A stretch of DNA of 45,002 nucleotides from a virus. Shown one piece after another: positions 2 to 40,069 of the stretch (the first letter of the stretch is position 1; each line of letters opens with the position of its first letter). Where the stretch lies: the IMG/VR virus record IMGVR_UViG_3300020442_002957, positions 1 to 45,002 of that record, one strand, 5' to 3'. A program made the position numbers and the translations under genes. The notes under the pieces were generated by a model, which was given only the letters and a program-made list of their open reading frames with translations, searched no databases and was not told the DNA's origin.

Positions 2-751
2 ATGAAATTAGGAATAGCAGGATACGGGTTTGTAGGACAAGCTCATGAATTAATATTTAAAGAATGTCACGATATTATTATAAGTGATCCTTTCAAGCGA
101 GAGTTTGGAAATTTGAAACATGCAGATGCAATTATCGTTTGTGTAAGCACTCCGCAAAAAGAGATGTCAGGACACTGTGATGTTACTAATGTGTGTGATG
201 TAATTGACGAAGCACCAGATGTGCCTATTTTAATCAAAAGCACTATATCTCCAGAAGGTTGGAGACTTATTAAAGATACTTGTAAAAATAAAGATATAAC
301 TTTTTCTCCTGAGTTTCTACGTGCGGCTCACTGGCAAGAAGATGCAAAGAATAAACGTGATTTTTACTTTGGTGGAGAAAGTTGTAACTTTTGGAGTGAC
401 TTATTTGTCAAGGCACTAGGAAAGATTAATGTTGATATTGCATCACCAGAAGAACTTATACTTATGAAACAACTTAGAAATAGTTACCTAGCAACTAAGG
501 TAACTTTCTTTAATCAAGTTTTTGATTATTGTAAAGGTGAAGGTGTAGATTTTGAACGTGTCAGAAAATTAATTACTGCTGATGATCGCATAGGCGAAAG
601 CCATAGCCGTGTTACTAAAGAACGAGGTTTTGGTGGACATTGTTTGCCAAAGGATACACTTGCAACTGTACGCAGTGCATTGATTAGTGCTGATACTAAG
701 ATGACGCTTCTTCAAGAAGCATTGGACTACAACGATAAAATCAAACGCTAG
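2..751 (+). CDS. UDP-glucose/GDP-mannose dehydrogenase-like protein (short form)
   Basis: Probable NAD-dependent nucleotide-sugar 6-dehydrogenase, which oxidises a UDP- or GDP-sugar to the uronic acid for surface polysaccharide. The N-terminus carries a Rossmann GxGxxG (GYGFVG, residues about 8-13). The C-terminal part has GFGGHCLPKDT, the family's catalytic-Cys motif, so the active site looks intact. At 249 residues it lacks the C-terminal UDP-binding domain of the usual 390-450 residue enzymes. The ATG at base 2 is the first possible start, but the window edge hides upstream sequence, so an earlier start cannot be excluded. It ends convergently against a minus-strand gene, overlapping by 4 bases. 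Substrate is unknown; a role in modifying host glycans during infection is inference. Confidence 0.75.
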   Translation: MKLGIAGYGFVGQAHELIFKECHDIIISDPFKREFGNLKHADAIIVCVSTPQKEMSGHCDVTNVCDVIDEAPDVPILIKSTISPEGWRLIKDTCKNKDITFSPEFLRAAHWQEDAKNKRDFYFGGESCNFWSDLFVKALGKINVDIASPEELILMKQLRNSYLATKVTFFNQVFDYCKGEGVDFERVRKLITADDRIGESHSRVTKERGFGGHCLPKDTLATVRSALISADTKMTLLQEALDYNDKIKR

Positions 752-2037: not shown

Positions 2038-3355
2038 TGATATCTTAAATGAAAAGCCTAGTGTTGCAGATGTAAAAAAGCAACAAAATAGATCAATGAC
2101 GCAAAAAGCAGATGATTTTATGCGTAAGAGTTTCCTACAAAAGTCAATTGATACACTTCAGGGTGCAACAGGACGTAGAGGTGTTGCTCCAACAGAACTA
2201 GAACCTAAATATAAAATTGTTAAAAAGAAAAAAGAAAAAGGCGCCGTTAAAGGAGAGCCTCAAGCACAAGCGCCTGCACAAGCACCAAAGCCTAGCAGTG
2301 GATTTCCTGTAAGTAAAACTGGTGTAGAACTAAAGCCAGGAGACAACATCACATATCAAAATGCTAAAGGTCAAATGAAAGATGGTGTTGTAACTGTCAT
2401 GCTTAAGACTAGAGACAGACAAGGCGATTTACAAATACAACTTAAAAAAGGTCCTGCTGTATTTGCAGTTGATAGACAAAACATTAGAACAGCGAACGGC
2501 GAGCCTTGGGAATATGATCCTAAGACACCAGACACAGGTAAAGTAAAAGAAAGCATTCTTAAAGAAGGCGGCAATGTGTTTAAAAGTGAAGAAGGTCCAC
2601 TTACACAACGTATTGCTACTAAAGATGTAAGACCTACTGTAGACTTTATTGAAAAGATCACAGGATTAGAATTCATTGATGATGACTTATTAGGTACCAC
2701 TGGTAAGAAAACAGATCCAGACGGAACATTTGAAAAGAACAGTTCAGGTGATCTTGACCTAAACACTGATGCCAACAAAATTAGCAAAGAGCAATTAATT
2801 GCAAAACTAAAAGCATACCTAGCGAAACAGGGTGTACCTGAAGAAGAAATGATGAATCAAGGACGCAATAAAACTGACGGTTATATCCACAACGCAGGCG
2901 ACCAAGTACATTTCCGCACACCAATTCAAGGTACCAAAGGTTATGTCCAAACAGACTTTATGTTCACAAACGATCCAGACTTTCAGCGTGGAGCCAAGCG
3001 TGGCGGCACAGCACAGTACGGCGGCAAGGACAGAGCAGTTCTGTTGTCTAGTATTGCTAGAGGACGTGGACTAAAATTTAGTCCTAAGTTTGGTGTAGTA
3101 GATCCTAACAATGGTGATAAGGTTGTTGCTAACAAGTGGGAAGACATTGCTAAAGTCCTACTAGGTCCAACAGCAACAGAAGCAGATACACTTACTGTTG
3201 AAAGTATGCTTGCAAAAATTAAAGGCTTACCAGAGTATGAAGATCTTATAGCAGGCTTCAAAGATTCTATGGAAAAGGCTGGCAAACCAATGCCTGAATC
3301 GAATGTTGAAACACTTGGCGACAAACATTTGCGTAGATTGAAAGAGCTTTTATGA
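2027..3355 (+). CDS. Putative Pol-beta-fold nucleotidyltransferase
   Basis: A 442-residue protein. Residues ~40-100 are low-complexity (Lys- and Ala/Pro/Gln-rich), and residues ~100-155 look like a small beta domain. The C-terminal half has SSGDLDLNTD (Asp242, Asp244), which fits the GS...DxD signature of Pol-beta-type nucleotidyltransferases. Then VQTDFMF (Asp310) sits on a predicted strand as the expected third carboxylate. The start is the ATG at 2027, with GAAGG upstream, rather than a TTG at 2012. It overlaps the next gene by four bases, and that gene carries ligase-type motifs, so the pair may act together on nucleic acid ends. Substrate unknown; the fold assignment is motif-based only. 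Confidence 0.55.
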   Translation: MKTNDILNEKPSVADVKKQQNRSMTQKADDFMRKSFLQKSIDTLQGATGRRGVAPTELEPKYKIVKKKKEKGAVKGEPQAQAPAQAPKPSSGFPVSKTGVELKPGDNITYQNAKGQMKDGVVTVMLKTRDRQGDLQIQLKKGPAVFAVDRQNIRTANGEPWEYDPKTPDTGKVKESILKEGGNVFKSEEGPLTQRIATKDVRPTVDFIEKITGLEFIDDDLLGTTGKKTDPDGTFEKNSSGDLDLNTDANKISKEQLIAKLKAYLAKQGVPEEEMMNQGRNKTDGYIHNAGDQVHFRTPIQGTKGYVQTDFMFTNDPDFQRGAKRGGTAQYGGKDRAVLLSSIARGRGLKFSPKFGVVDPNNGDKVVANKWEDIAKVLLGPTATEADTLTVESMLAKIKGLPEYEDLIAGFKDSMEKAGKPMPESNVETLGDKHLRRLKELL

Positions 3356-4596
3356 GATTCGTAGAATTTAGAAAACACAAAACAGGGAAAGCAGGACAAC
3401 TTAAAGGCAAAGACGCCATTAAGAAGAAAAGCAAACCTGGAGGTAATGAGACACCACACCCAGCAAGAGGAAAACTCGTAGGTGAAGACCTTAATGAAGC
3501 AGAAGCAAGAATACAACATTTAGAAGATGTTATTTTTTGGGAAGGTAGTAGAGGTGCTATGAGAGCATTACAAGCACTTCGTAGCATGGACAAGGAGGGT
3601 CATAAAGATGTCACAATCAAATGGGACGGATCTCCCGCACTCATTTTTGGGCGCAATGAGGATGGAGAATTCACACTGTCGGACAAAGGAGGATTCACAA
3701 AAAAGAATCCCGAACGAGCCAAGAGTGCAGATGAAATTAAAGACTTCATGCTCAATCGTGGAGGTGGAGCAAAGAGAGATGATCCGGGCCGTATAGCATT
3801 TGCTAATAATATGGCAAGTATTTTTCCTATGTTTGCAAAAGCAGTTCCAGAAGATTTTAGAGGTTACTTTAAAGGTGACTTGTTATACTATTCAACACCG
3901 CCAGTAAAAGACGGACACTTTGTTTTCAAACCTAATCCAACGGGTGTTGATTACGCTATTGATACAAAAAGTGATCTAGGTAAAAAGATTGCTAAAAGCA
4001 AAACAGGTATTGTAATACACAGGGTGGTTGATGAAAACGGAAATGAAAGCCCACTTAAAGACTTTGATATATTCAAAGGCAATGAAGTTCTTGTTGTACC
4101 GCCAGTTACAGCATTAGGTCCTGTAGAAGTTGATACAAAAGAATTGGATCAATTAGAAGCAGTAATTAAAAAGAATAGTGCAGGCATTGACGAACTATTA
4201 AACAAACAAGAACTAAAAGCAAAACAAATGACAGACTTTCCTAATTTATTATATACGTATATAAATAGTAAGGTTGATACAGGTTTATCAAACTTAGGAG
4301 GCGACTTTGCACAATGGCTACAAACTGCAAAAGTCAGTGATAGGAAAAAAGCAAAAGTATTAGAATATATCAAATTACATATGAACGCATTTAAGGCATT
4401 GTGGAATACAGTTGGAACACTTCAGCGTGTCAAAGACAAAGTAATTTCAAACTTAGATAATCAAGACCAAGGCATCAAACAAAACATCAACGGACAAAAA
4501 GGTGGTGAAGGTTATGTAATGGCACATCCAGGCGGTGACCTAAAACTTGTACCACGTTCAACATTTACAGCGGCATCAAGGGCCGCTAGAAGATAG
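3352..4596 (+). CDS. Putative ligase-superfamily nucleotidyltransferase (KxDG protein)
   Basis: A 414-residue protein with features of covalent nucleotidyltransferases (DNA/RNA ligases, capping enzymes). VTIKWDGSPA places a KxDG motif at Lys90-Gly93, the site that would carry the AMP adduct. FKGDLLYY (residues ~173-180) could be motif III. EGYV (386-389) fits motif IV, and the near-terminal LKLV (397-400) fits motif V. Spacing between motifs I and IV is larger than in minimal ligases, with a helical insert (~225-375). It starts inside the stop of the preceding gene (ATGA). Function may be nucleic-acid joining or an unrelated nucleotidylation; no OB-fold is obvious after motif V. Family members without known function are expected in marine T4-like phages. 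Confidence 0.5.
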   Translation: MRFVEFRKHKTGKAGQLKGKDAIKKKSKPGGNETPHPARGKLVGEDLNEAEARIQHLEDVIFWEGSRGAMRALQALRSMDKEGHKDVTIKWDGSPALIFGRNEDGEFTLSDKGGFTKKNPERAKSADEIKDFMLNRGGGAKRDDPGRIAFANNMASIFPMFAKAVPEDFRGYFKGDLLYYSTPPVKDGHFVFKPNPTGVDYAIDTKSDLGKKIAKSKTGIVIHRVVDENGNESPLKDFDIFKGNEVLVVPPVTALGPVEVDTKELDQLEAVIKKNSAGIDELLNKQELKAKQMTDFPNLLYTYINSKVDTGLSNLGGDFAQWLQTAKVSDRKKAKVLEYIKLHMNAFKALWNTVGTLQRVKDKVISNLDNQDQGIKQNINGQKGGEGYVMAHPGGDLKLVPRSTFTAASRAARR

Positions 4597-4605
4597 GAGA
4601 AAAAA

Positions 4606-4941
4606 ATGAAGATCAAAGATCTAGTTAATGAAAGTGACTTTGCTGACTTAGGCCTAAGAGGCGTAGGTAGCGAATTAGACATAGACGACTTTGGGGGCAA
4701 AGAATTTAAAGCACCTCGCATGTTCGATCAGCTTGCTAAATGTGCAGATAACATCAATGGCCAAGCAGAAGTAAAAACAGATGATGGTAAAACTATCATG
4801 TGCAAAAGCTCTACAGCAAAGAAGATCATGGACATGGAACGCAGTATCACACAACAAGGTGGTAAGAAAGAAAAGTTCATGAATATGATTCAAAAATCAG
4901 ACGGTTTGAACAAAGTAATTGATTATATAGAGAACAAGTAA
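4606..4941 (+). CDS. Hypothetical phage protein
   Basis: A 111-residue hydrophilic protein, preceded by GGAGAAAAAA eight bases from the ATG. The N-terminal third is acidic (NESDFADLG...SELDIDDFGG) and the rest is Lys-rich and helical. It lies ten bases after the ligase-like gene and two bases before the next, so it is in the same operon. No family recognised. Confidence 0.65.
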   Translation: MKIKDLVNESDFADLGLRGVGSELDIDDFGGKEFKAPRMFDQLAKCADNINGQAEVKTDDGKTIMCKSSTAKKIMDMERSITQQGGKKEKFMNMIQKSDGLNKVIDYIENK

Positions 4942-4942
4942 C

Positions 4943-5815
4943 ATGATGGAGTTTGTCAAAGAACTACACGAAGCTCGCCTCACAAGAGGTAATAATGCGT
5001 TAAAACAATTGACGTTTACAGATTGCTGTGAGCGACTGTTCTTGACAATGCTTATATTAGAATTACTAGACAAGTATCCAAGTTTTAGAGGAGCAACCAG
5101 AGAATATGCTAGACGTTCTAGTTTGTATGATACATTTAATTCCTATAGAATGAATGGTACTGACTTGTATAACTTTGCATATTTTATAAGTGGCCCAGAC
5201 GAAGCGCAGGAAAAACTAAAAGATCCAGGTGCGGCAAAAGCATTAAAACAAAGAATAACTTTGCCTAAGATGCAACTTAATGGTTATCTTAGAGCAAGAG
5301 CCAGCGGTTATGCCTATCGATCCGCAGGTGAATTGCTTATGAGACTAGAGTCAGCTTTGGCTATTCGTAATACAGATTACAAAGCTATTAGACGCAATGT
5401 TGTTATGTATGATAGATTAAGCACTTTGGATAAAAAGAAAACTGTTACTAGGTTGTTAATTGCAAGTAGAGCAAAACTTAGAACAGCAGATATTATTGAT
5501 GACTTAGAAAAGTTAGCGGCTGTAAATGATTTAGAAACAGCAAGAGTGCAAGACAACGAGCCTAAAATAAGCGTTCCGGATATTAGTACAGACGCTAGAG
5601 ATATTAGTTTATATAGATATCTTGTAGGTGTTGACAATCTAATGAAAACTAAGAACTTTTTAGAACTTGCAAAACAAGGTAGAAGTGTACCTGGGCAGTT
5701 TGTGCAAGGCTACACTCCGGCTATTAAAATGGTGGATGATATAGTTCAAGCAGGCCCTGCATACATAAATCTACTAAGATCACTGCATCAGAGAGCCAAA
5801 AAAGCCCGTAAATAG
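4943..5815 (+). CDS. Hypothetical helical phage protein
   Basis: A 290-residue mostly helical, basic protein (many Arg/Lys, C-terminus HQRAKKARK), without signal peptide or TM. It begins with ATGATG two bases after the previous stop and closes the operon that starts at 1777. The next gene has its own late box. No family recognised; late-operon placement suggests an assembly or virion role. Confidence 0.65.
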   Translation: MMEFVKELHEARLTRGNNALKQLTFTDCCERLFLTMLILELLDKYPSFRGATREYARRSSLYDTFNSYRMNGTDLYNFAYFISGPDEAQEKLKDPGAAKALKQRITLPKMQLNGYLRARASGYAYRSAGELLMRLESALAIRNTDYKAIRRNVVMYDRLSTLDKKKTVTRLLIASRAKLRTADIIDDLEKLAAVNDLETARVQDNEPKISVPDISTDARDISLYRYLVGVDNLMKTKNFLELAKQGRSVPGQFVQGYTPAIKMVDDIVQAGPAYINLLRSLHQRAKKARK

Positions 5816-18476: not shown

Positions 18477-18504
18477 AAAAAAGAGTGTTGCCCGAAAGCA
18501 ACAC
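18477..18504 (-). terminator. Terminator of the tmRNA transcript
   Basis: Minus strand: GTGTTGC, a six-base loop, GCAACAC, then CT and six T. It ends the tmRNA coding piece. Confidence 0.8.
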
Positions 18505-18548
18505 CCTTAATCGTTCTGTTGCTAGGTGATCAACCCCGGAAGCCTATA

Positions 18549-18590
18549 CTAGGCCGCCATTGCCATTTCTGGCGCATAATTGTCGTTTGC
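18549..18590 (-). other. tmRNA tag reading frame
   Basis: GCA resume codon to TAG, encoding ANDNYAPEMAMAA. The ANDN start and AA end match alphaproteobacterial tags recognised by ClpXP. Confidence 0.9.
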
Positions 18591-18660
18591 AATTATAAGT
18601 TTTGCTGATTTACGGTCTCGCCTACCGGTAACTCCACGTTCTCTCTTACACCTGTCGATC

Positions 18661-18828
18661 CTAGTTCAGGCCCATCATAAACACACTAGGATCAACATAG
18701 CCTAGTGCATATGCTATTCCCATTTCTATACCTAGTAAAACTACAAGTCCTAAGACTGCAATACTTACTGCCATAGGTAGAAACATAAAGTCTTTCCAAG
18801 TTCTTTTTCTTGTGCAACAACTACTCAT
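18661..18828 (-). CDS. Small membrane protein encoded inside the tmRNA intervening loop
   Basis: A 55-residue ORF with GGAG five bases before its ATG. A Cys/Lys/Arg-rich N-terminus (MSSCCTRKRTWKDF) is followed by one TM (~residues 18-42) and a short tail. It begins 20 bases after the CCA end of the acceptor piece. Its stop lies 13 bases inside the coding piece, so the last codons overlap the tmRNA acceptor stem. In permuted tmRNAs this loop is normally cut out and discarded. If real, the precursor doubles as an mRNA. A chance ORF is possible, but the site and the hydrophobic segment argue for a gene. Confidence 0.6.
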   Translation of the reverse strand: MSSCCTRKRTWKDFMFLPMAVSIAVLGLVVLLGIEMGIAYALGYVDPSVFMMGLN

Positions 18829-18915
18829 GTTATCTCCAATGTGTTTATGGTGGACCTGCGCGGTACTGCCCCGCGGTCCAGTTTGTCGTTGATTGGCTTC
18901 AACGTTACAATACTA

Positions 18916-18944
18916 TTTATACTGTCTGTTTATAATAAAGTCAA
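18916..18944 (-). promoter_or_regulatory. Sigma-70-type promoter of the tmRNA
   Basis: Minus strand: TTGACT, 17-base spacer, TATAAA. The -10 region also reads TATAAATA, the T4 late consensus, so the tmRNA might be made both early and late. Confidence 0.75.
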
Positions 18945-19031
18945 GTAAAAAATAAAAATTAGCGTAAAAATATCCGCCATCTAAGGTACCGTAAACCATT
19001 TATGGTAGTTTTACTTTATTTTTTACACTTC

Positions 19032-29340: not shown

Positions 29341-30939
29341 ATGGCAAAAGATGTACAATTTGGTGACGTAAGTCGCTCAAAAATTATTAAAGGTGTAGAC
29401 GTGCTGGCAAACGCAGTTCGTGTTACACTAGGTCCAAAAGGACGAAACGTAATTTTACAACAACCATTTAAGCCGCCACACGTTACTAAAGACGGTGTGA
29501 CAGTAGCCCGTGAGATCTTCTTAAAAGATCCAATTGAAGATATGGGTGCTCAGATGGTTAAGGAGGTAGCAAGTCTTACAGCAGTAGATGCTGGTGACGG
29601 AACTACTACTGCAAGTGTTCTAGCACAGAGCATTGTAAAAGAAGGATACAAGTATGTAACTTCTGGAATGAATCCAATGGATCTAAAGCGTGGTATGGAT
29701 ATTGCTACAGATGCTATCGTAGAACAATTAGATAGTATTAGTAAGCCTTGCAACAGCAACAGTGAAATTGAACAGGTCGGTTCTATTAGTGCTAACTCAG
29801 ATGAGAGCATTGGTAAACTTATTGCAGAAGCAATGGACCGTGTAGGACAAGACGGAGTTATCACTGTTGAAGAAGGACAAAGTCTTAAGAACGACTTAGA
29901 AGTTGTTGATGGTATGCAGTTTGATCGAGGTTATCTATCTCCATACTTTATGAACAATCAAGAAAAATTGAATTGTGTACTCGAAGAACCTTACATCTTA
30001 CTAACTGATGAAAGCATTACTAATATTCAAAATCTTGTACCATTACTTGAAAAGGTAATTCAACAAGGTAAACCATTGTTAGTAATTGCAGAAGATGTTG
30101 AAGGCGAAGCACTAGGTACTCTTGTAATGAACACTGCAAGAGGTATTGTTAAGGCTTGTGCAGTTAAAGCACCAGGCTTTGGCGAGCGTAGACGTGAAAT
30201 GCTACAAGACATGGCGGTGCTTACAAAAGGTACAGTGATTTCAGAAGATGTAGGATTATCATTAGATAAGGTTACACTAGATCATTTAGGAACTGCACAG
30301 AGAGTTGAGATCAATAAAGAAACAACTACTATTGTAGATGGTGCAGGTACTAAGGAAGATATCCAACAACGTATTGACTACATTAAGAAGTTACTTGATG
30401 ACACAGAATCTAGTTACGACAAGGAAAAAGCAATGGAGCGTCTAGCAAAACTAGCAGGCGGTGTTGCTGTAATTAAAGTTGGAGCGGCTACAGAAGTAGA
30501 AGCCAAAGAAAAGAAGGATCGTATTGACGATGCTTTACATGCAACTAGAGCCGCAGTAGAAGATGGCATTGTTGCAGGCGGAGGTATTGCACTACTTAGA
30601 GCCAAACAACAACTAGCAGATTTGACAGGCAAAAATGCTGACCAAGATGCTGGTATTAAGATCGTGCTAGATGCGATTGAATCACCATTACGCCAAATTG
30701 TAGCTAATGCAGGTGTAAGTGCTGATGTTGTGATTGCTAATGTACTCAAAGGAGAAGGTACATATGGCTATGATGCGGCAGAAGATACATATGGTGATAT
30801 GATTGAAAAAGGTATTATTGACCCAACTAAAGTAACCAAAACTGCACTATTAAATGCAAGCAGTATCGCTGGTATGATTATTACTTCAGAATGTTCTATT
30901 GTGGATATTGAAGAAAAAAACAAGCCAGAAGATGAATAA
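29341..30939 (+). CDS. groEL: GroEL-type chaperonin
   Basis: A 532-residue Hsp60. Signature segments are present: [42 protein letters not shown] (catalytic Asp of the ATP site), the apical domain with [19 protein letters not shown], and [18 protein letters not shown]. The C-terminus ends KNKPEDE and lacks the GGM tail, so cavity properties may differ. No groES-like gene is in the window; it could use host GroES. A GAGGATAAC site precedes the ATG. Probably folds phage structural proteins. Confidence 0.95.
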
Positions 30940-30964
30940 TTGGTAAAATAATTGATAAATAATA

Positions 30965-30993
30965 TTGACATTGTAGTAGTAAGATGCTATTAT
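30965..30993 (+). promoter_or_regulatory. Sigma-70-type promoter of the Hsp20 gene
   Basis: TTGACA, 17-base spacer, TATTAT; an overlapping TATAAT lies three bases later. An upstream GATAAATAA (late-like word) is close by. Confidence 0.7.
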
Positions 30994-30997
30994 AATG

Positions 30998-31020
30998 TTG
31001 TAGCGCCGGAAGGGCTACAA
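30998..31020 (+). repeat. 5' leader hairpin of the Hsp20 transcript
   Basis: TTGTAGC pairs with GCTACAA around a nine-base loop, right at the expected transcript start. May stabilise the mRNA or act as a thermosensor (speculative). Confidence 0.5.
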
Positions 31021-31052
31021 AGTTAAATCTTGCTTAATAAAGGAGAAAAAAC

Positions 31053-31517
31053 ATGACAAGACTAACAACTCTAGACTTACCCTCAATACATAGACACTTT
31101 GTAGGATTCGACAGAATGTTCGATGAAATGGACAGAATCTTCGAAAACTCTACTAAAGGACAAGGGTATCCACCATACAATATTGCACAACTAAATGAGA
31201 ACGAATACATGATCTCAATTGCTGTAGCAGGATTTGGTATGGACAACCTTTCAATTGAAAAGGACAAAGATACACTTAAAATTGAAGGAACTGCTCCAAA
31301 AGGAGACGAGGATGTAAATTATCTACACAGAGGAATTGGTGGAAGATCATTCCGTAGAGAGTTTACACTAGCAGATCACGTTGAAGTCCACAATGCTGAA
31401 CTTAAAAATGGTATGCTAAACATTCACCTAAAACGTGAAGTTCCAGAAGAAATGAAGCCTAAGAAGATTGAAATCAACGCAGGCCAAACTATCGAAGGAA
31501 CTGTTTCCGAGAAGTAA
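31053..31517 (+). CDS. Small heat-shock protein Hsp20 (IbpA-like)
   Basis: A 154-residue alpha-crystallin-domain holdase. FDEMDRIFE near the N-terminus, then YPPYNIAQLNENEYMISIAVAGFGMDNLSIEKDKDTLKIEG and YLHRGIGGRSFRREFTLADHVEVHNAELKNGMLNIHLKREVPEE follow the IbpA pattern. The last segment, EINAG, takes the place of the usual I-x-I tail. Hsp20 is a frequent gene of marine T4-like phages. Own promoter, 36 bases of AGGAG-containing leader after the hairpin. Confidence 0.9.
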   Translation: MTRLTTLDLPSIHRHFVGFDRMFDEMDRIFENSTKGQGYPPYNIAQLNENEYMISIAVAGFGMDNLSIEKDKDTLKIEGTAPKGDEDVNYLHRGIGGRSFRREFTLADHVEVHNAELKNGMLNIHLKREVPEEMKPKKIEINAGQTIEGTVSEK

Positions 31518-31524
31518 TAAGTCT

Positions 31525-31546
31525 GGGGGAGTGAAATACCTCCCCC
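31525..31546 (+). repeat. Intercistronic hairpin between hsp20 and clpS
   Basis: GGGGGAG and CTCCCCC pair around an eight-base loop without a T run. More likely an mRNA stabiliser or partial stop than a full terminator. Confidence 0.55.
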
Positions 31547-31562
31547 TAAACAAGGAGTAATT

Positions 31563-31871
31563 ATGACTGACATTCTTGAAGATATTAAACTAGATGAAAA
31601 GCTCAAAGAAGATATCGAAGAGCCTAAAAAATATAAAGTAGTCATGCTAAATGATGACAAAACTCCTATGGAATGGGTCATCGGCATACTTATAGAAATT
31701 TTCAAACACGATAACAACACAGCTCAACAACTCACTCTAACCATTCATAACGAGGGATCTGGTATTGCTGGCATATATAGTTATGAGGTTGCTGAAACAA
31801 AAATGCAAGAAGCAACTCAACTTAGCCGGAATAATGGATTTCCGCTTGTGATTAAATTAGAGAAAGAGTAA
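31563..31871 (+). CDS. clpS: ClpS-type N-degron adaptor
   Basis: A 102-residue adaptor that delivers N-end-rule substrates to ClpAP and can block other ClpA substrates. After a disordered acidic N-terminus (~1-22), YKVVMLNDDKTPMEWVIGIL gives the NDxxTPM pocket. The core then continues through HNEGSGIAGIYSYEVAETKMQEA and GFPLVIKLEKE. The pocket residues are intact, so it should bind N-degrons. CAAGGAG precedes the ATG; it overlaps the next gene by one base. Confidence 0.9.
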   Translation: MTDILEDIKLDEKLKEDIEEPKKYKVVMLNDDKTPMEWVIGILIEIFKHDNNTAQQLTLTIHNEGSGIAGIYSYEVAETKMQEATQLSRNNGFPLVIKLEKE

Positions 31872-32419
31872 TGTCAAATTTAAAAGAGCTAACTTGGGAA
31901 CATCATAAAAACGCAGAACGACAAGCATTTGTAAAAGAGCTAATGGGTGGCAAAATTACAAATGAACGTTATGCAACCTATCTTTATAACCAACATCCGC
32001 AATATGATATATTAGAAGCAATGGCTATGATCCATGGTATATTTGACGGTGCTCCTGCACTTCGTAGAGCTCCAAGTATTATGGCAGACTTTGAAGAATT
32101 ATGGGCTGGAGGAGATAAAACTCGTCCAAAAATATGTCCTGTTGTAGGCGAATATGTAGAATATCTAAAACCTTTAGCACAAGATCGAGATAGACTAATG
32201 GCGCATGTTTATGTAAGACACATGGGCGATCTAAGTGGTGGTCAAATGATTAGTAAGCGTGTACCTGGTAGAGGAAGATTCTATAAATTTAAACAAGATC
32301 ACGATTTCTTAAAACAACATATTAGAGGACAACTTGACGATAGTATGGCAGAAGAAGCAAAGGTATGTTTTGACTTTGCTACTAAATTATTTAAACAAAT
32401 GATGGAGATGAATAAGTGA
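31871..32419 (+). CDS. Heme oxygenase (HO-1 type)
   Basis: A 182-residue enzyme that opens heme to biliverdin IX-alpha, CO and Fe2+ using reductant. LTWEHHKNAER places the proximal His at residue 12, and HVYVRHMGDLSGGQMISKRVPG is the distal helix with the Gly-rich kink. Somewhat shorter than cyanobacterial HO1 (~240). Start overlaps the clpS stop by one base. Directly followed and overlapped by a bilin reductase, so biliverdin is passed on. Confidence 0.9.
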   Translation: MSNLKELTWEHHKNAERQAFVKELMGGKITNERYATYLYNQHPQYDILEAMAMIHGIFDGAPALRRAPSIMADFEELWAGGDKTRPKICPVVGEYVEYLKPLAQDRDRLMAHVYVRHMGDLSGGQMISKRVPGRGRFYKFKQDHDFLKQHIRGQLDDSMAEEAKVCFDFATKLFKQMMEMNK

Positions 32420-33751: not shown

Positions 33752-34558
33752 ATGAAGATAATATTATTACCTATAATTTTATGTGCATTATTAGGCGGCT
33801 GTGCGGCACCAGGAAGTCTTAAAGGACTTAGCAATGCTGATCCTATGCCTAGTATACAAAAGTCACCTATACCAGAGATGTTGGCCGCAGTGCCACCAAT
33901 TGAAGGTAAAAAGATTACTGTTGCTGTCTATAGTTTTAGTGATAAGACAGGACAACGTAAACCATCAGACACAGTATCAAACCTAAGTTCAGCAGTTACA
34001 CAAGGTGCAGAAGTTTGGGTTATCAAAGCATTACAAGAGGTAGGTAATGGTAGCTGGTTTGAAGTTGTTGAAAGAATTGGCATGGATCATTTGATTAAAG
34101 AACGTCAATTGATTCGTAACACAAGAGATGTGTATGAAAAAGAATTAAAGAGTGGACCTACACCCCTTAAGCCTATGTTGTTTGCAGGACTACTATTAGA
34201 GGGCGGAATAGTTGGTTATGATGCAAACACGGCTCAAGGCGGTGTAGGTGCTAGATATTTAGGAATTGGTACTCAAACAGAATACCGTGTTGATACTGTC
34301 ACTGTAGTGATGAGGCTTGTAAGTGTTAGCACAGGTAGAGTACTTATGAGTGTAGCAACTCAAAAAACAATAGCAAGCCATAGATCCGGAGCGGATATAT
34401 TTAAGTTCTTTGATATGGGAACTAGACTGGTAGAGTCGGAGACAGGCTTTTCAGTCAATGAACCGGTTAACTATGCTGTTAGGGCGGCCATTGAGGCAGG
34501 CATAGTTGAACTGATTTATGAAGGAGAAAGAAAAGAACTATGGAAGTTCAGAAAGTGA
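33752..34558 (+). CDS. csgG: CsgG-like curli secretion channel lipoprotein
   Basis: A 268-residue outer-membrane lipoprotein forming the type VIII secretion pore. Lipobox LGGC, Cys17. The family order is complete: ITVAVYSFSDKTGQRKPSD, SSAVTQGAEVWVIKAL, WFEVVERIGMDHLIKERQLIR, then LLEGGIVGYDANTAQGGVGARYLGIG (transmembrane hairpin 1 region), TQTEYRVDTVTVVMRLVSVSTGRVLMSVATQKTI, and FKFFDMGTRLVESETGFSVNEPVNYAVRAAIEAGI. Full length versus E. coli (277). No gap after csgF. Virtually certain family assignment; cargo is probably the two curlin-like proteins next door. Confidence 0.93.
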   Translation: MKIILLPIILCALLGGCAAPGSLKGLSNADPMPSIQKSPIPEMLAAVPPIEGKKITVAVYSFSDKTGQRKPSDTVSNLSSAVTQGAEVWVIKALQEVGNGSWFEVVERIGMDHLIKERQLIRNTRDVYEKELKSGPTPLKPMLFAGLLLEGGIVGYDANTAQGGVGARYLGIGTQTEYRVDTVTVVMRLVSVSTGRVLMSVATQKTIASHRSGADIFKFFDMGTRLVESETGFSVNEPVNYAVRAAIEAGIVELIYEGERKELWKFRK

Positions 34559-34564
34559 GGGCAA
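34556..34564 (+). promoter_or_regulatory. TGAGGGCAA ribosome site of the first curlin-like gene
   Basis: Overlaps the csgG stop and ends two bases before the ATG at 34567, deciding this start over one at 34540. Confidence 0.55.
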
Positions 34565-34566
34565 AT

Positions 34567-35274
34567 ATGCTTAAAATACTAACCGTTCTCCTGATGCTTT
34601 TTGGGTCTACGGCATTCGCAAATGAGATTTATATTGATCAAGTTGGCGATAACCTAGACTTAGACATTACACAGGATGGACAAAACAACAAAGTTGGTAC
34701 AGACCAAGCTGACATGACGTTGAGTGGCGATGATATGACTTTTGCTATTACACAAACAGGTAATACAAACACTATCGTTGCAACCATCAAAGGCACAGAC
34801 TATACAGGTTCATGGACATTTACAGGTAATTCAAACGCTGTAGATTTACAATGTTCTAGTGCATCAACAGGAAAATGTGACACTGTAACACTTAATATTA
34901 CAACAACTGGTGACGACAACACATTTGATTTTGATATAGGTGAATCGACTGACGCAGATTCAGCTACTGTAAGTTTTACAGTTGATGGTGATAACAACAT
35001 CAGTAACACTGATATTGACGGAACAAGCGTAGCATTAACAGTTATAATGGACAACTCAGCTTCATTAGCAACTACTAGTGCAAATTCCGATGAAGGAAAC
35101 GTATTGGACATTGATATTGATGGCAATGGTGATGTAAACGGTCATACAGTAACACTAGACATTACTGGTGGTGGTAGTACCTACGATATTAATCAAAGTG
35201 GAATCTACGACAACACTGTGAATGCTACATTCGATGGTGATAGCCAAGATGTTGACATAACACAGAGCGACTAG
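34567..35274 (+). CDS. Curlin-like exported repeat protein 1
   Basis: A 235-residue exported protein. Signal peptide MLKILTVLLMLFGSTAFA, then NEIYIDQVGDNLDLDITQDGQNN, shared with the second curlin-like protein. The mature chain is Asn/Asp/Thr/Gly-rich with about ten short strand-turn units of the form I-x-Q-x-G-x-x-N (ITQDGQNN, ITQTGNTN, INQSGIYDN, ITQSD). This matches the Q..G..N logic of CsgA/CsgB repeats, though many units have Asp or Thr in place of Gln. It is acidic, unlike typical CsgA. Probably an amyloid-like fibre subunit or nucleator exported through CsgG. Confidence 0.75.
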   Translation: MLKILTVLLMLFGSTAFANEIYIDQVGDNLDLDITQDGQNNKVGTDQADMTLSGDDMTFAITQTGNTNTIVATIKGTDYTGSWTFTGNSNAVDLQCSSASTGKCDTVTLNITTTGDDNTFDFDIGESTDADSATVSFTVDGDNNISNTDIDGTSVALTVIMDNSASLATTSANSDEGNVLDIDIDGNGDVNGHTVTLDITGGGSTYDINQSGIYDNTVNATFDGDSQDVDITQSD

Positions 35275-36438
35275 ATGAAACTTTTATTAGTGATCGCAAC
35301 CATTCTCTTATTCTCAAATCCAGCCCATGCGGCTTTGGAGGACGCAGGCTCTATTGGGTCCATCAAAGGCAGTGGTGTACTTGAGCGTGGAAATGATGTG
35401 ATCACAGGTGATAAGGGTGTTACTGTACAAATGCAGGACACTGCTGTCACAGCCAACGGAACTATGCGTATCGATTTCTTCGATGAAACAAGAGTTGATC
35501 TTACAGAACATGCAAGATTGACTATTGATGAATTCGTATACGATCCAGCAAATGATGTTGGTAGTCTTTCGATCAAAGCGGGTCTTGGCGGTGTACGCTA
35601 TGCATCAGGCCAGATAGCAAAAAAATATCGTCAAAACGTAAAGATCAAAACACCTTCTGCTACTATCGGGGTTAGGGGAACCGATTTTTCAATGGTAGTA
35701 GATGAGATGGGTGGTAGCATGATAACTCTGTTACCTTCATGTGACACAAATGGTATGTGTTATGTTGGAGAGATAGAAGTTAGCACCGACGTGGGGACTG
35801 TTGTCATGAATCAAGCCTTCCAATCAACCATGACATCCACAAGGATGCAACCCCCATCTCCCCCTTTACTTATTGAAGCTGACGAGTCTATGCTCAACAG
35901 TTTGATAATACTTCGCAAGCGTACACCTTATGACGAAGCTGAAGATGTTTATTATAGGCATGCTAAACGTGCAGATTTTTTAGGATTAGATTGGTTAGAT
36001 GTTGACTTACTTGATTCGTCGAGTTGGCTTGATACTGAAAGTTTGTGGGTTACAGCATTGGATGAAAGTGATTGGCGTCTGGGAGATATGCTTTATGATA
36101 TCCTGGATCAATTAAACGAGGCACTAAGGGCATTATTTGAAGATGAACTAATAAGGCAAAACGCTCTATTAATGAGACCAGATACAACTACATACGGCTT
36201 TGATGCCACAACGGGTATACGTTTGACAAAAGAAGGCGATAAGTGGATATGGGAGAGAGAAGATAGAGCAGGAGAAAACTACATAAGGATCAAATTAGAT
36301 CAAAACTATGGATACGATATAAATGTTAAACAAAGTGATTTTGAAATATACGGATACAAGTTGGGTGTTTCAACTAACAACAGCATTAATATTAAGCAGT
36401 GCGATAATGGTTGTTCCAACGATAGCTTATTCGAATGA
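35275..36438 (+). CDS. FecR-domain exported protein with curlin-like C-terminus
   Basis: A 387-residue exported protein. Signal peptide MKLLLVIATILLFSNPAHA, then a FecR domain (~25-170): GSIGSIKGSGVLERGNDVITGDKGVTVQMQDTAV, RIDFFDETRVDLTEHARLTIDEF, KIKTPSATIGVRGTDFSM. A helical middle with repeated LLDSSSWLDTESLW-type acidic segments follows. The end (YIRIKLDQNYGYDINVKQSD...NSINIKQCDNG) resembles curlin units. FecR domains are periplasmic sensor or ligand modules, and in bacteria such proteins often neighbour CHASE2 cyclases. No base lies between it and the upstream stop; it overlaps the next gene by 116 bases. May be a fibre-linked sensor. Confidence 0.8.
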   Translation: MKLLLVIATILLFSNPAHAALEDAGSIGSIKGSGVLERGNDVITGDKGVTVQMQDTAVTANGTMRIDFFDETRVDLTEHARLTIDEFVYDPANDVGSLSIKAGLGGVRYASGQIAKKYRQNVKIKTPSATIGVRGTDFSMVVDEMGGSMITLLPSCDTNGMCYVGEIEVSTDVGTVVMNQAFQSTMTSTRMQPPSPPLLIEADESMLNSLIILRKRTPYDEAEDVYYRHAKRADFLGLDWLDVDLLDSSSWLDTESLWVTALDESDWRLGDMLYDILDQLNEALRALFEDELIRQNALLMRPDTTTYGFDATTGIRLTKEGDKWIWEREDRAGENYIRIKLDQNYGYDINVKQSDFEIYGYKLGVSTNNSINIKQCDNGCSNDSLFE

Positions 36439-37138
36439 TCTCTACATTAACCAAGTAGGAGATGATCTCACTCTGTCTATAACACAAGACGGAGAAGACA
36501 ACACTATTGGCACAAGCTCTGTCCCTATAGATTTGGACGGTGATGATATTGATGTAACACTAGTTCAAGAAACAGATGGAGCATCAATTGTTCTATCTAT
36601 AGATGGCAATAACAATACACTTGTTGCAAAACAAAAGTGTTCAGAAAGTACTTGTAATGCAGACTCAATGGATTTTAACATTGTTGGTAATAACAATAAT
36701 GTAAAAGCGGGCCAAGGCTACAAGATTCGAAGTAATGGTGATTATGACTACGACTATCAAGAACATGGAGGGCATGACATGAATGTTGATATATCAGGAC
36801 ATTATAATACACTTAAACTTAGTCAGCGTAGCAACAATAGTATTAGCAATCATAATATGGACGTAGATATAAATTGGGATAGTAATAATGTACATGTAAT
36901 TCAAGAACACAATGCTGATAAAAGTTTAGACCTTACAATTAACAACAGATACAATGATGTTACTATACATCAGCGTAAAGCACACGGACACACAGCAACA
37001 ATAACAATAGATGGCACATATAACACACAATTAGATTTACAACAAGGCACAAACAGTACAACACAAGGTTTATCATATACTTTAAATCAATATTGTACTA
37101 CACCAGGCGGGTGCGCGGTTACCGTTACTCAAGAATAA
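36323..37138 (+). CDS. Curlin-like exported repeat protein 2
   Basis: A 271-residue exported protein with a hydrophobic signal (LTTALILSSAIMVVPTIAYS), then NDLYINQVGDDLTLSITQDGEDN, closely matching curlin-like protein 1. It has at least eight repeat units of ~22 residues (LTLSITQDGEDN, VNVDISGHYNTLKLSQRSNN, VDINWDSNNVHVIQE, ITIDGTYNTQLDLQQG, YTLNQY) and is His-rich in the middle. The N-terminal ~38 codons overlap the FecR gene in another frame. The ATG at 36323 lacks a site; a GTG near 36365 would still keep the signal peptide, so the true start is uncertain. Likely co-fibre or minor subunit. Confidence 0.75.
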   Translation: MLNKVILKYTDTSWVFQLTTALILSSAIMVVPTIAYSNDLYINQVGDDLTLSITQDGEDNTIGTSSVPIDLDGDDIDVTLVQETDGASIVLSIDGNNNTLVAKQKCSESTCNADSMDFNIVGNNNNVKAGQGYKIRSNGDYDYDYQEHGGHDMNVDISGHYNTLKLSQRSNNSISNHNMDVDINWDSNNVHVIQEHNADKSLDLTINNRYNDVTIHQRKAHGHTATITIDGTYNTQLDLQQGTNSTTQGLSYTLNQYCTTPGGCAVTVTQE

Positions 37139-38014: not shown

Positions 38015-40069
38015 ATGACTAAGTGGATCACACATTGGACAATAGCCTTTATCACGGCTGTAGTGATGATATTAATTCATTACGGGGATGGTACCATTGT
38101 TCAAACGGCTCGGCTCAAGCAATTTGATCTACTCCAAACTTCAAGTGAGCCTATATTGTCCCAGGATATTGCAGTAGTCACCATCGACGAGACAGCTATT
38201 GAAAAGTACGGTCAATGGCCCTGGAAGCGTGATGTTCTTGCAGATGTAATCTGGAGACTTCGTGAAGCAGGTGCTGGTATCATTGTGATGCCTATGCTAT
38301 TCTCAGAACCAGATAGACTTGGTGGAGATTTAGCACTAGCCGAAGCACTTGTAGAGAACGGTGTAGTGATTGCCCAAACAGGAACTACGTCCGGTGTAAG
38401 CCGTAACTCTGTACCGCGTGGAGTTGCGAAGATAGGTGATCCTTTACCATTCTTGTTTGAATGGCCAGGGATGCTGGGGCCTATTCCAATGCTAGGAGAA
38501 AATGCCGACGGTGTAGGTGTATTAAACACTTTTCCAGAAATCGATGGCGTGGTACGTAGAGTGCCTCTTCTTATGCGTATTGGGGACAATACGTATCCGG
38601 CTATGGCAGTGGAAGTTATACGAGTTGCTACTGGCGCTCCTTCCTATCAGGTTAAGGCTAACCAAGGAGGCATAGAAGCTATAAGAGTACCAGGTTATCC
38701 AGTTATTAGAACGGATCCGAATGGACAAATTTGGTTGCGTTGGAATAAAGAGTTTGAAACTGTTTCAGTTGCGGAGGATGATTTTAGCATCGTAGAAGGC
38801 AAAACAGTAATAGTAGGCGTAACAGCAGAAGGCTTAGGTGGCATCATTGCTACACCACAAGGCCCACAGTACAATTACTTGCCAGCGGCAATAACACTAC
38901 AAACTGTAATAGATGGTGACCAAATCGAAAGGCCCTATTGGGCTTTCCTTGCAGAATTGTTAGCGACGGGAATCTTAGGCATAGCCCTTGTGCTGTTAGC
39001 TCGTTTTGCACCTTACTGGTTAGTTGGTATTAAGATTGTAGCGTTTAGTGGTTTGCTTGTGTATGGTGCTCACTATGCATGGACAAATTATTTGTATCTA
39101 TTAGATATCACTATGCCGTTGGTTACTGTACTGTTAGTAGGATTACATGCTGTATTCAATAGATTTGTAAGCGAATATTTTCAGAAACAAGCAATTAAGA
39201 AACAGTTTGCTGGTTATGCTTCACCCACTGTTGTTAGATTGCTTCAAGAAAATCCTGCACTTATTAAAGAAGGCATGAAAAAAGAAGTGAGTATTTTATT
39301 TTCAGACTTGCGTGGATTTACTCCTTTAGGCGAATCATTCGGTGATGATGTTAAAGGCTTAACAAAAATTATGAACGGCTACATGGACGCAATTACACAA
39401 CCTATATTAGATTCAGATGGTATGGTTATAAAATATATTGGTGATGCAAGTATGCACATACATAACGCACCTATTGATGATCCAGAACATCCTAAAACAG
39501 CAGTACAGTGTGGTTTGAATATGTTAAATGCAGTGGAGAAATTTAATGAAAAAATTACCGCAGAAGGTAGACCTCCGGTGGGTATGGGTGCCGGTATTAA
39601 TACTGGGCTTGGCTATCTTGGCGAAATGGGATCAACAGCCAGACATAGTTATGATGTTCTCGGGGATGCTGTAAGCACAGCGGCTAGGATAGAATCTAAA
39701 TGTAAAGAGTACGGTTGTTTATTGTTAGTAGGCGAAAGCACTTATAATGCAACAAAAGATGATTTCTTTTATCTTAAAGTAGATGATTTACAAGTTAAAG
39801 GTAAAAGTGTTGGGTTATCTATCTATACAGTTTTAGACGGAATGAATAACAAATCAGATTTAAAAAGCCAAAAGTTTCATAATGAAATGCATGAAGCATA
39901 TCAAGCACAAAAGTTTGATGAAGCAATTTACATATGTGAAAAACTAAAAAGACATTTCGATGCCAAAATGGTTGGATATTATAACATGTGGATTGAACGC
40001 TGTGAATACATGAAAACACAGGATTTACCTGCTGATTGGAATGGCGTGTTTATAGCGGCTACAAAATAA
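38015..40069 (+). CDS. CHASE2-domain class III adenylate cyclase
   Basis: A 684-residue membrane receptor cyclase. TM1 lies at ~6-23. A periplasmic CHASE2 domain (~35-300) contains DIAVVTIDETAIEKYGQWPWKRDVLADVI and RVPLLMRIGDNTYPAMAVEVIR. Three TMs (~308-392) follow, then a cyclase domain (~425-605). Catalytic elements: metal Asp431 (FSDLRGFT) and Asp477 (IKYIGDAS); Lys473 and Asp547 (YDVLGD) specify ATP; Arg558 is the transition-state Arg. Ser554 replaces the usual transition-state Asn (DAVSTAAR). Expected to make cAMP in response to an envelope signal, perhaps from the FecR-domain protein upstream. Highly unusual for a phage. Confidence 0.9.
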   Translation: MTKWITHWTIAFITAVVMILIHYGDGTIVQTARLKQFDLLQTSSEPILSQDIAVVTIDETAIEKYGQWPWKRDVLADVIWRLREAGAGIIVMPMLFSEPDRLGGDLALAEALVENGVVIAQTGTTSGVSRNSVPRGVAKIGDPLPFLFEWPGMLGPIPMLGENADGVGVLNTFPEIDGVVRRVPLLMRIGDNTYPAMAVEVIRVATGAPSYQVKANQGGIEAIRVPGYPVIRTDPNGQIWLRWNKEFETVSVAEDDFSIVEGKTVIVGVTAEGLGGIIATPQGPQYNYLPAAITLQTVIDGDQIERPYWAFLAELLATGILGIALVLLARFAPYWLVGIKIVAFSGLLVYGAHYAWTNYLYLLDITMPLVTVLLVGLHAVFNRFVSEYFQKQAIKKQFAGYASPTVVRLLQENPALIKEGMKKEVSILFSDLRGFTPLGESFGDDVKGLTKIMNGYMDAITQPILDSDGMVIKYIGDASMHIHNAPIDDPEHPKTAVQCGLNMLNAVEKFNEKITAEGRPPVGMGAGINTGLGYLGEMGSTARHSYDVLGDAVSTAARIESKCKEYGCLLLVGESTYNATKDDFFYLKVDDLQVKGKSVGLSIYTVLDGMNNKSDLKSQKFHNEMHEAYQAQKFDEAIYICEKLKRHFDAKMVGYYNMWIERCEYMKTQDLPADWNGVFIAATK

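Follow-up and report, generated by a model that had tools for sequence, protein, structure and literature searches.

Known permuted tmRNA genes and the present locus

Circularly permuted, two-piece transfer-messenger RNAs (tmRNAs) are already known as a class in phages: in the available text of PMC9004378 two-piece forms make up 53 of 133 unique phage-genome tmRNAs, 50 of the 53 being marine or aquatic, and phage Melnitz is described there as having an alpha-type two-piece tmRNA and a gammaproteobacterial host, OM43. The locus considered here lies in a stretch of viral DNA of 45,002 nucleotides (nt) that was analysed as a whole (IMG/VR virus record IMGVR_UViG_3300020442_002957, positions 1 to 45,002; "the window"), of which positions 18505-18961 on the minus strand are confirmed by covariance searches as a complete alpha-type circularly permuted tmRNA gene. 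What is new is that the presumably excised spacer, the intervening sequence (IVS) between the two halves of the tmRNA, contains a protein gene; the original prediction, made from the letters of the window, recognised the tmRNA and overlooked a 55-codon open reading frame (ORF) in its spacer. The favoured reading, to which a probability of about 0.82 is assigned, is that the IVS of an alpha-type permuted tmRNA gene has become a slot for small protein genes, the precursor being both a message and a pre-tmRNA. No report of protein genes in a tmRNA IVS was found in the literature searched, including the available portions of PMC9004378, PMC11915505, PMC10117765, PMC4131195 and PMC7335160.

DNA relatives of the window tmRNA were found in 13 phage records, only the four of Melnitz scoring below E 0.01. 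Like the window gene, Melnitz ssrA is phage-borne, alpha-type and two-piece, with a TTGACA-17-TATAAATA promoter and an embedded ORF; unlike it, ssrA holds a different embedded protein and is followed by a glutamine riboswitch, none of which scores over the cut-off in the window. The ORF of this isolate (MFKWLSKTRL..., L002 4057-4221, plus strand; L and G numbers denote loci and genomes) lies inside the ssrA feature and is present in 4/4 records; no coding sequence is annotated inside ssrA in the Melnitz record, and the available text of PMC9004378 does not mention one. tmRNA genes are annotated as noncoding, so nested protein genes are easily missed, as in that record. The presence of the arrangement in a cultured isolate makes it experimentally approachable.

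The two-piece tmRNA genes of alphaproteobacteria share with the window gene the gene order, a G-U at acceptor pair 3, the T-loop type, the D-loop motif, the tag frame and a spacer, but the 18 parsed bacterial spacers are 10-61 nt long whereas that of the window is 174 nt and holds a protein gene. Other tmRNA genes are interrupted by a group I intron, which in some cases carries a homing endonuclease gene (PMC11915505, available text), and thus also have a removable spacer able to hold a protein gene; the window spacer, in contrast, sits between permuted halves, and ten embedded proteins that were scanned gave no endonuclease family match. A group I intron was considered for the window and rejected: Rfam gave no intron family match there, and the T-stem pairs 5/5 around an uninterrupted T-loop. 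In one permuted tmRNA, from a nominally archaeal bin, the IVS contains a tRNA-Ala (PMC11915505, available text); this too is a gene in an IVS, but an RNA gene and not a series of protein genes. The 23-amino-acid small ORF of the S. meliloti tmRNA (PMC10117765, available text) is a different case from a gene in the IVS, since it terminates in the tag frame.

Identity of the tmRNA

Two Rfam covariance models of such RNAs match the window over their full length and above gathering: RF04321 (tmRNA_permuted) at 18908-18549 on the minus strand (109.6 bits, gathering 47, model 1-213/213) and RF01849 (alpha_tmRNA) at 18961-18505 on the same strand (103.1 bits, gathering 50, model 1-355/355), the 3' region of the latter match being scored without pairs; ARAGORN did not report a tmRNA in the window. 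The alpha-tmRNA search was the check proposed with the original prediction, and it upholds the complete two-piece tmRNA on the minus strand that had been described. Also borne out are the acceptor of 7 base pairs formed from two separated pieces (7/7 pairs in the window) with a G-U third pair, the CCA encoded at the 3' end (18850-18848), and a promoter containing the T4 late word TATAAATA and a terminator, the elements of both being read by eye rather than taken from a promoter or terminator scan. Failure of the acceptor halves to covary in related phages had been named as grounds for abandoning the prediction; instead, 13 of 13 distinct acceptor helices pair 7/7, against a mean of 5.48 with reshuffled partners, and all 13 have G-U at pair 3. 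For this comparison the nearest upstream T-loop and CCA were taken without requiring pairing. The search started from the D-loop word GAACTAGG(A/T)TCGACAGG, which dictates the G of pair 7; loci L003-L188 contain it 133 times, and in 126 of these cases a T-loop and CCA lie within 400 nt upstream. One detail did not hold: the T-loop GGCAGTA, taken for non-canonical, is close to the RF01849 consensus (GGCgGUA) and is the commonest loop among the relatives listed. The permuted alpha-type phage tmRNA thus stands, while the host lineage with permuted tmRNA deduced from it is plausible and not secure, because Melnitz has an alpha-type tmRNA though its OM43 host is gammaproteobacterial (PMC9004378, available text).

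The window tag ends in AMAA, i.e. hydrophobic-Ala-Ala; in phage relatives, 12 tags out of 155 parsed end in MAA (22 more unparsed), and among the tags of tmRNAs with a long IVS the Ala-Ala ending is found in 59/59 parsed, as LAA in 50 (4 more unparsed). That the tmRNA part might be inactive in rescue, a decoy or scaffold in a locus retained for its protein gene, is very improbable in view of these intact tag frames, the covariation of the acceptor with its G-U pair 3, and the conservation of the promoter and of a helix that closes the spacer (see below).

The embedded gene and its relatives

In the window the embedded gene runs from an ATG at 18828 to a TAG at 18663-18661; this stop codon is part of the D-loop word AACTAGGATCGAC and lies 10 nt into the mature coding piece, so that the frame would lose its stop on cutting of the precursor. 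Its product, P0001, is basic at the N-terminus and contains a single strongly hydrophobic segment (the best 19-residue mean hydropathy of its cluster is 2.78) and is most likely an accessory membrane protein. Twenty relatives of P0001 were found in a protein-led scan, 7 inside a tmRNA IVS and 13 as free-standing genes of 45 amino acids, e.g. in L207, where the genes on the two sides encode a virion structural protein and a protein of the tail sheath, and in L202, close to a lysozyme-like gene; none was found in phage records by tblastn at E<=1. The IVS copies have lost their own stop and extend in frame into the spacer end, stopping inside the coding piece in 6/7 and at -4 in L197. The family is homologous along its length, with a ratio of nonsynonymous to synonymous substitution (dN/dS) of 0.11-0.22, i.e. 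under purifying selection. At one of these loci, L194, putative ABC transporter genes (by eye; 3303-5758, plus strand) lie downstream of the phage tmRNA with its P0001-family ORF.

The generality of the arrangement was assessed in a sample drawn from three DNA-pattern scans of viral contigs, to which Melnitz, the P0001-led loci and the window were added; two of the three scans give lower bounds, and the counts apply among the matches listed. At least 241 permuted tmRNAs were parsed in 240 of 304 viral loci, 188 of them distinct, with 177 distinct spacers. The other 64 loci were unparsed (contig ends, free-standing genes, variant motifs) and fall outside all IVS counts, and at least L263, L274 and L320 among them do hold an IVS gene. 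A spacer was scored as containing an ORF when the start lay within 45 nt of the CCA, 4 nt or more matched the Shine-Dalgarno sequence, and the ORF took up at least 60% of the spacer. Among spacers of 110-300 nt, 52 of 67 distinct ones contain such an ORF against 2.3 expected from 100 dinucleotide shuffles of each (45 of 59 when Melnitz, the window and the P0001-led loci are set aside), and at 20-109 nt the figure is 4 of 107 against 6.4 expected; three still shorter spacers were outside the shuffle test. In the 52, starts cluster 18-20 nt after the CCA (33/52), and every stop falls in the range -18 to +39 as measured from the coding piece. In 12 of the 15 long spacers that fail, inspection by eye still reveals an ORF, one that has a homologue, a comparatively weak ribosome site, a leader of very few nucleotides or what looks like an ATA start. 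The IVSs of L351 and L347 have long open frames encoding similar proteins with no ATG, GTG or TTG near the ribosome site, and an ATA start is possible.

Selection on the embedded proteins is indicated by dN/dS, computed from codons inside the spacer only: nine hand-made groups provide 36 pairs, every one of which gives a value within 0.03-0.35 (a tenth group has a single member and thus no pair). Most of the phage IVSs sampled lack such an ORF and are short: of the 169 distinct ones from the DNA-pattern scans, 107 measure 20-109 nt. This is what can be said for an ordinary phage tmRNA with a noncoding spacer in which an ORF arose by chance. Against it stand the shuffle control, the dN/dS values and the free-standing homologues; a chance ORF is rejected on the first two, and the noncoding spacer is hardly credible as an account of the locus. 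Judged by these comparisons the 55-codon spacer ORF is a selected protein gene, and the 52 distinct embedded genes would represent a hidden set of small phage proteins in 17 clusters, several with a strongly hydrophobic segment.

The spacer-closing helix and a proposed dual role of the precursor

The ends of the spacer pair with each other and extend the acceptor stem, the predicted fold of the window precursor having a z of -4.1. This closing helix of 8 pairs averages 7.50 pairs in long spacers (26 distinct end pairs) against 5.38 when reshuffled (standard deviation 0.22), and 7.28 in short spacers (69 distinct) against 5.22, with compensatory types at several pairs; the register was picked for maximal pairing and the shuffles used the same register. 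A covarying helix, as these counts describe it, closes the spacer around the embedded gene, and the Shine-Dalgarno-like TTGGAGA starts directly after its 5' arm.

In the proposed mechanism, one precursor would be transcribed from an early/late promoter and would serve first as mRNA, the 30S subunit loading on TTGGAGA, probably during transcription, for translation of the small membrane protein. Host tRNA-processing enzymes would then cut the precursor into the two tmRNA pieces and the spacer would be discarded, so that the IVS, by analogy, would be missing from the mature tmRNA; the latter would use host SmpB to tag stalled chains with ...AMAA. Since the window ORF has its stop in the coding piece, the cut precursor would be a nonstop message, and full-length protein would come from the uncut precursor only. 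The message of arfA is a nonstop mRNA whose expression is tied to trans-translation; the window message would likewise be stop-less once the presumed cut is made, and P0001 differs in being without a Pfam match.

Several points weigh against the reading of the precursor as message and pre-tmRNA. In the predicted fold of the full precursor the ribosome site (pair probabilities 0.53-0.96) and the AUG (0.83-0.98) are mostly paired; an accessible ribosome site in the folded precursor is thus unsupported, and initiation would have to precede complete folding. P0001 has no match in Pfam at E<=0.01 (no comparison aimed at ArfA was made), and only weak ones in PHROG (best E 0.018). The ORF criterion was chosen after a first inspection of the ORFs, the long IVSs of L096, L130 and L166 (3/67) look noncoding, and the sample consists mostly of metagenomic contigs found by motif scans, with frequencies that are not population estimates. 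All of the support, finally, is at the level of sequence.

Because one RNA would be both message and pre-tmRNA, translation and maturation must be reconciled. One proposal is that the embedded gene is present because the two compete: ribosomes translating it would open up the closing helix together with the acceptor stem and hold maturation back, a scarcity of free ribosomes would let the precursor mature, and, where the stop lies in the coding piece, the tmRNA would tag the product of its own cut precursor. Ribosomes on the ORF would indeed run through the closing helix and the acceptor, and the predicted tmRNA-forming fold hides the ribosome site, so that folding and translation are mutually exclusive on paper. 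Stops fall within the coding piece for 24 of the 52 long-IVS ORFs, the window included (17/45 in the scan-only set), and there cutting would give a nonstop message. However, ORFs without their own stop use all three frames, ending at -4 (8), +10 (12) and +39 (12), and 20/52 stop at -18 to -10, which fits mere slot-filling. Selection for stops within the coding piece is therefore unsupported; moreover the 17 clusters, with purifying selection in the groups compared, indicate that the product itself matters. Competition as the reason for the gene is accordingly doubtful and rather unlikely. The fuller version, a self-regulating dual-output precursor in an exchangeable slot, in which translation withholds the tmRNA and cutting yields a rescue RNA that tags its own nonstop product, is distinctly unlikely; if true, the locus would set small-protein output against ribosome-rescue capacity late in infection. 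The precursor read as message and pre-tmRNA offers a way into the questions of why phages have tmRNA at all and of how a single transcript is shared between ribosomes and tRNA-processing enzymes.

Promoter and late box

The timing of expression is indicated by upstream elements that recur in the relatives. In the 130 nt upstream of the tmRNA, the box TATAAATA is present for 55 of 66 tmRNAs with an IVS of at least 110 nt and for 94 of 127 with a shorter one, whereas of 9600 stretches of 130 nt drawn at random from the same contigs 148 contain it (1.5%). Where present it is 38-52 nt before the T-stem, with one exception at 91. The combination TTGACN-15..19-TATAAATA is found upstream of 45/66 and 81/127 respectively. 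The late expression suggested for the window tmRNA is supported by this enrichment, while the -35-like TTGAC fits early use too; the phage may, as was also suggested, have a need to rescue or tag stalled products late in infection. Early expression from the Melnitz promoter has been argued by its authors (PMC9004378, available text); that promoter also contains the late box, and therefore both early and late timing are possible. The window phage is marine and probably T4-like, the latter on the basis of its nrdA-nrdB region and late box, no virion gene entering into the assignment; the listed matches of the nrdA-nrdB region are the Pelagibacter phages HTVC008M and Mosig together with cyanophages.

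Table 1. Coordinates and basis of the elements of the tmRNA locus in the window
Feature	Position	Strand	Basis or remark
-35-like TTGACT	18939..18944	-	by eye; 17-nt spacer to TATAAATA
TATAAATA, T4-type late promoter box, also usable as -10	18914..18921	-	by eye and relatives
T-arm, acceptor 3' strand, discriminator and CCA (3' end of acceptor piece)	18848..18875	-	Rfam and pairing
Acceptor 3' strand CAGGTCC	18858-18852	-	pairs with GGGCCTG
IVS, 174 nt, between CCA and acceptor 5' strand	18674..18847	-	
IVS-closing helix, 5' arm TAAACACA	18840..18847	-	fold and covariation
Shine-Dalgarno-like TTGGAGA of embedded gene	18833..18839	-	
Embedded gene, 55 codons + TAG, protein P0001 (MSSCCTRKR...), predicted membrane protein	18661..18828	-	
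IVS-closing helix, 3' arm TGTGTTTA	18678..18685	-	fold and covariation
Acceptor 5' strand GGGCCTG, start of coding piece	18667..18673	-	Rfam and pairing
Tag reading frame ANDNYAPEMAMAA + TAG	18549..18590	-	Rfam and sequence
Intrinsic terminator-like hairpin and T-run	18477..18508	-	by eye

Exchange of genes in the spacer

The 52 embedded proteins fall into 17 single-linkage clusters, and the content of the spacer varies between closely similar tmRNA backbones, as compared among the 176 tmRNAs with enough flank. Thus L041, with a gene in its 205-nt IVS, and L053, with an empty IVS of 29 nt, have backbones 98.5% identical over 328 nt; L190, with a P0001-family gene, and L348, with a 53-nt IVS, are 95.4% identical over 306 nt. 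Different ORFs occupy the spacers of the window and L038 (backbone 91.4% over 301 nt) and of L288 and L318 (99.4% over 328 nt; both fail the ribosome-site criterion). In L192 and L194, 311 of 318 backbone positions match, and their genes are 79% and 94% identical to P0001. On the evidence of such pairs the IVS is, in related phages, a slot for many unrelated small genes, or empty.

Copies outside tmRNAs, each hit being checked for a T-arm and CCA immediately upstream, were found for 12 of the 17 clusters by local tblastn of hand-made families (F numbers) against the viral loci, F16 being a 13th. Those of F4, F8 and F10 are weak matches (best E 1.6e-4 to 7.4e-4), and of the largest cluster the C-terminal part alone occurs outside. 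Four of the 17 clusters, and the N-terminal part of F2, the Melnitz type, have no outside copy among the viral loci; in a protein-led scan F2 was in a tmRNA spacer at 18/18 loci, 13 of the contigs being already in the sample. Family F5 is inside the spacer in L009, L041, L281 and L301, and of its 22 outside hits 16, Melnitz included, lie 71-75 nt upstream of a tmRNA, four lie 478-559 nt upstream, and two are without a parsed tmRNA (one is an unparsed tmRNA).

A protein-led scan placed F16 in a parsed spacer at 38 of 57 loci. By eye, 14 of the remaining 19 have a tmRNA piece on at least one side (the coding side is broken in L469, and L444 and L486 are cut at contig ends) and five are free-standing (L449, L458, L465, L471, L497). 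Among these, L449 and L465 have a C-terminal tail made up of the retained spacer end and acceptor strand, and both spacer ends are retained in L458, so that the three look like genes that left a tmRNA. Near-repeats (gatggaaaccta...) lie on either side of the L458 copy, around position 1201, and may be a remnant of the recombination by which it was transferred.

A gene found in the slot, beside the tmRNA (F5) and far off, with outside copies in 13/17 clusters, P0001-family members free-standing in several contexts, and free-standing F16 copies that retain spacer or coding-piece remnants (e.g. L449, L458), could be a selfish or moron-like mobile gene for which the tmRNA spacer is a harmless landing place, its pairing with the tmRNA being unused. 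The four clusters and the F2 N-terminal part without outside copies, and the presence of F2 in an IVS at all 18 loci, do not favour this, nor does the content of the cassettes: all are below 80 codons with no recombinase or endonuclease apparent. Such mobility is somewhat unlikely to be the explanation; it addresses why the genes are there, not what the locus is, and is compatible with an IVS that has become a slot for protein genes in a dual-purpose precursor.

Bacterial tmRNA genes

In a class-wide bacterial set 266 of 289 genomes matched, and 30 loci were taken from among the matches listed. Of 36 bacterial loci in all, 19 were parsed and 17 were not; 18 have the short IVS noted above, while the remaining one, L362, lies on a binned contig that is probably of a phage. 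Within the order of G007, 24 of 32 genomes matched, 21 full-length matches spanning 286-302 nt as against 457 nt in the window; G301 gave two longer spans, of 354 and 349 nt, and G007 one of 547 nt; the remaining matches are partial or weak. An IVS gene as a feature of bacterial tmRNA genes was thus not seen among the 18 parsed bacterial IVSs. The tmRNA match of G007 (L362/L423) is the sole one of its bin and lies on a contig of 29,883 bases, with the same size and 266-nt IVS gene as in viral L032; it is probably viral.

Other genes of the window

A proteostasis set at 29341-32419 (plus strand) comprises a GroEL-like protein (by eye), HSP20, a ClpS adaptor and a heme oxygenase; ClpS steers a protease able to degrade tagged proteins. 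A curli-like cluster at 33752-37138 (plus strand) encodes CsgG (PF03783, E 4e-49), curlin-repeat (PF07012) and FecR-domain (PF04773) proteins, together with one more secreted-looking protein that has no match over the cut-off. At 38015-40069, also on the plus strand, lies a gene for a protein with CHASE2 and adenylate/guanylate cyclase catalytic domains (PF05226, PF00211).
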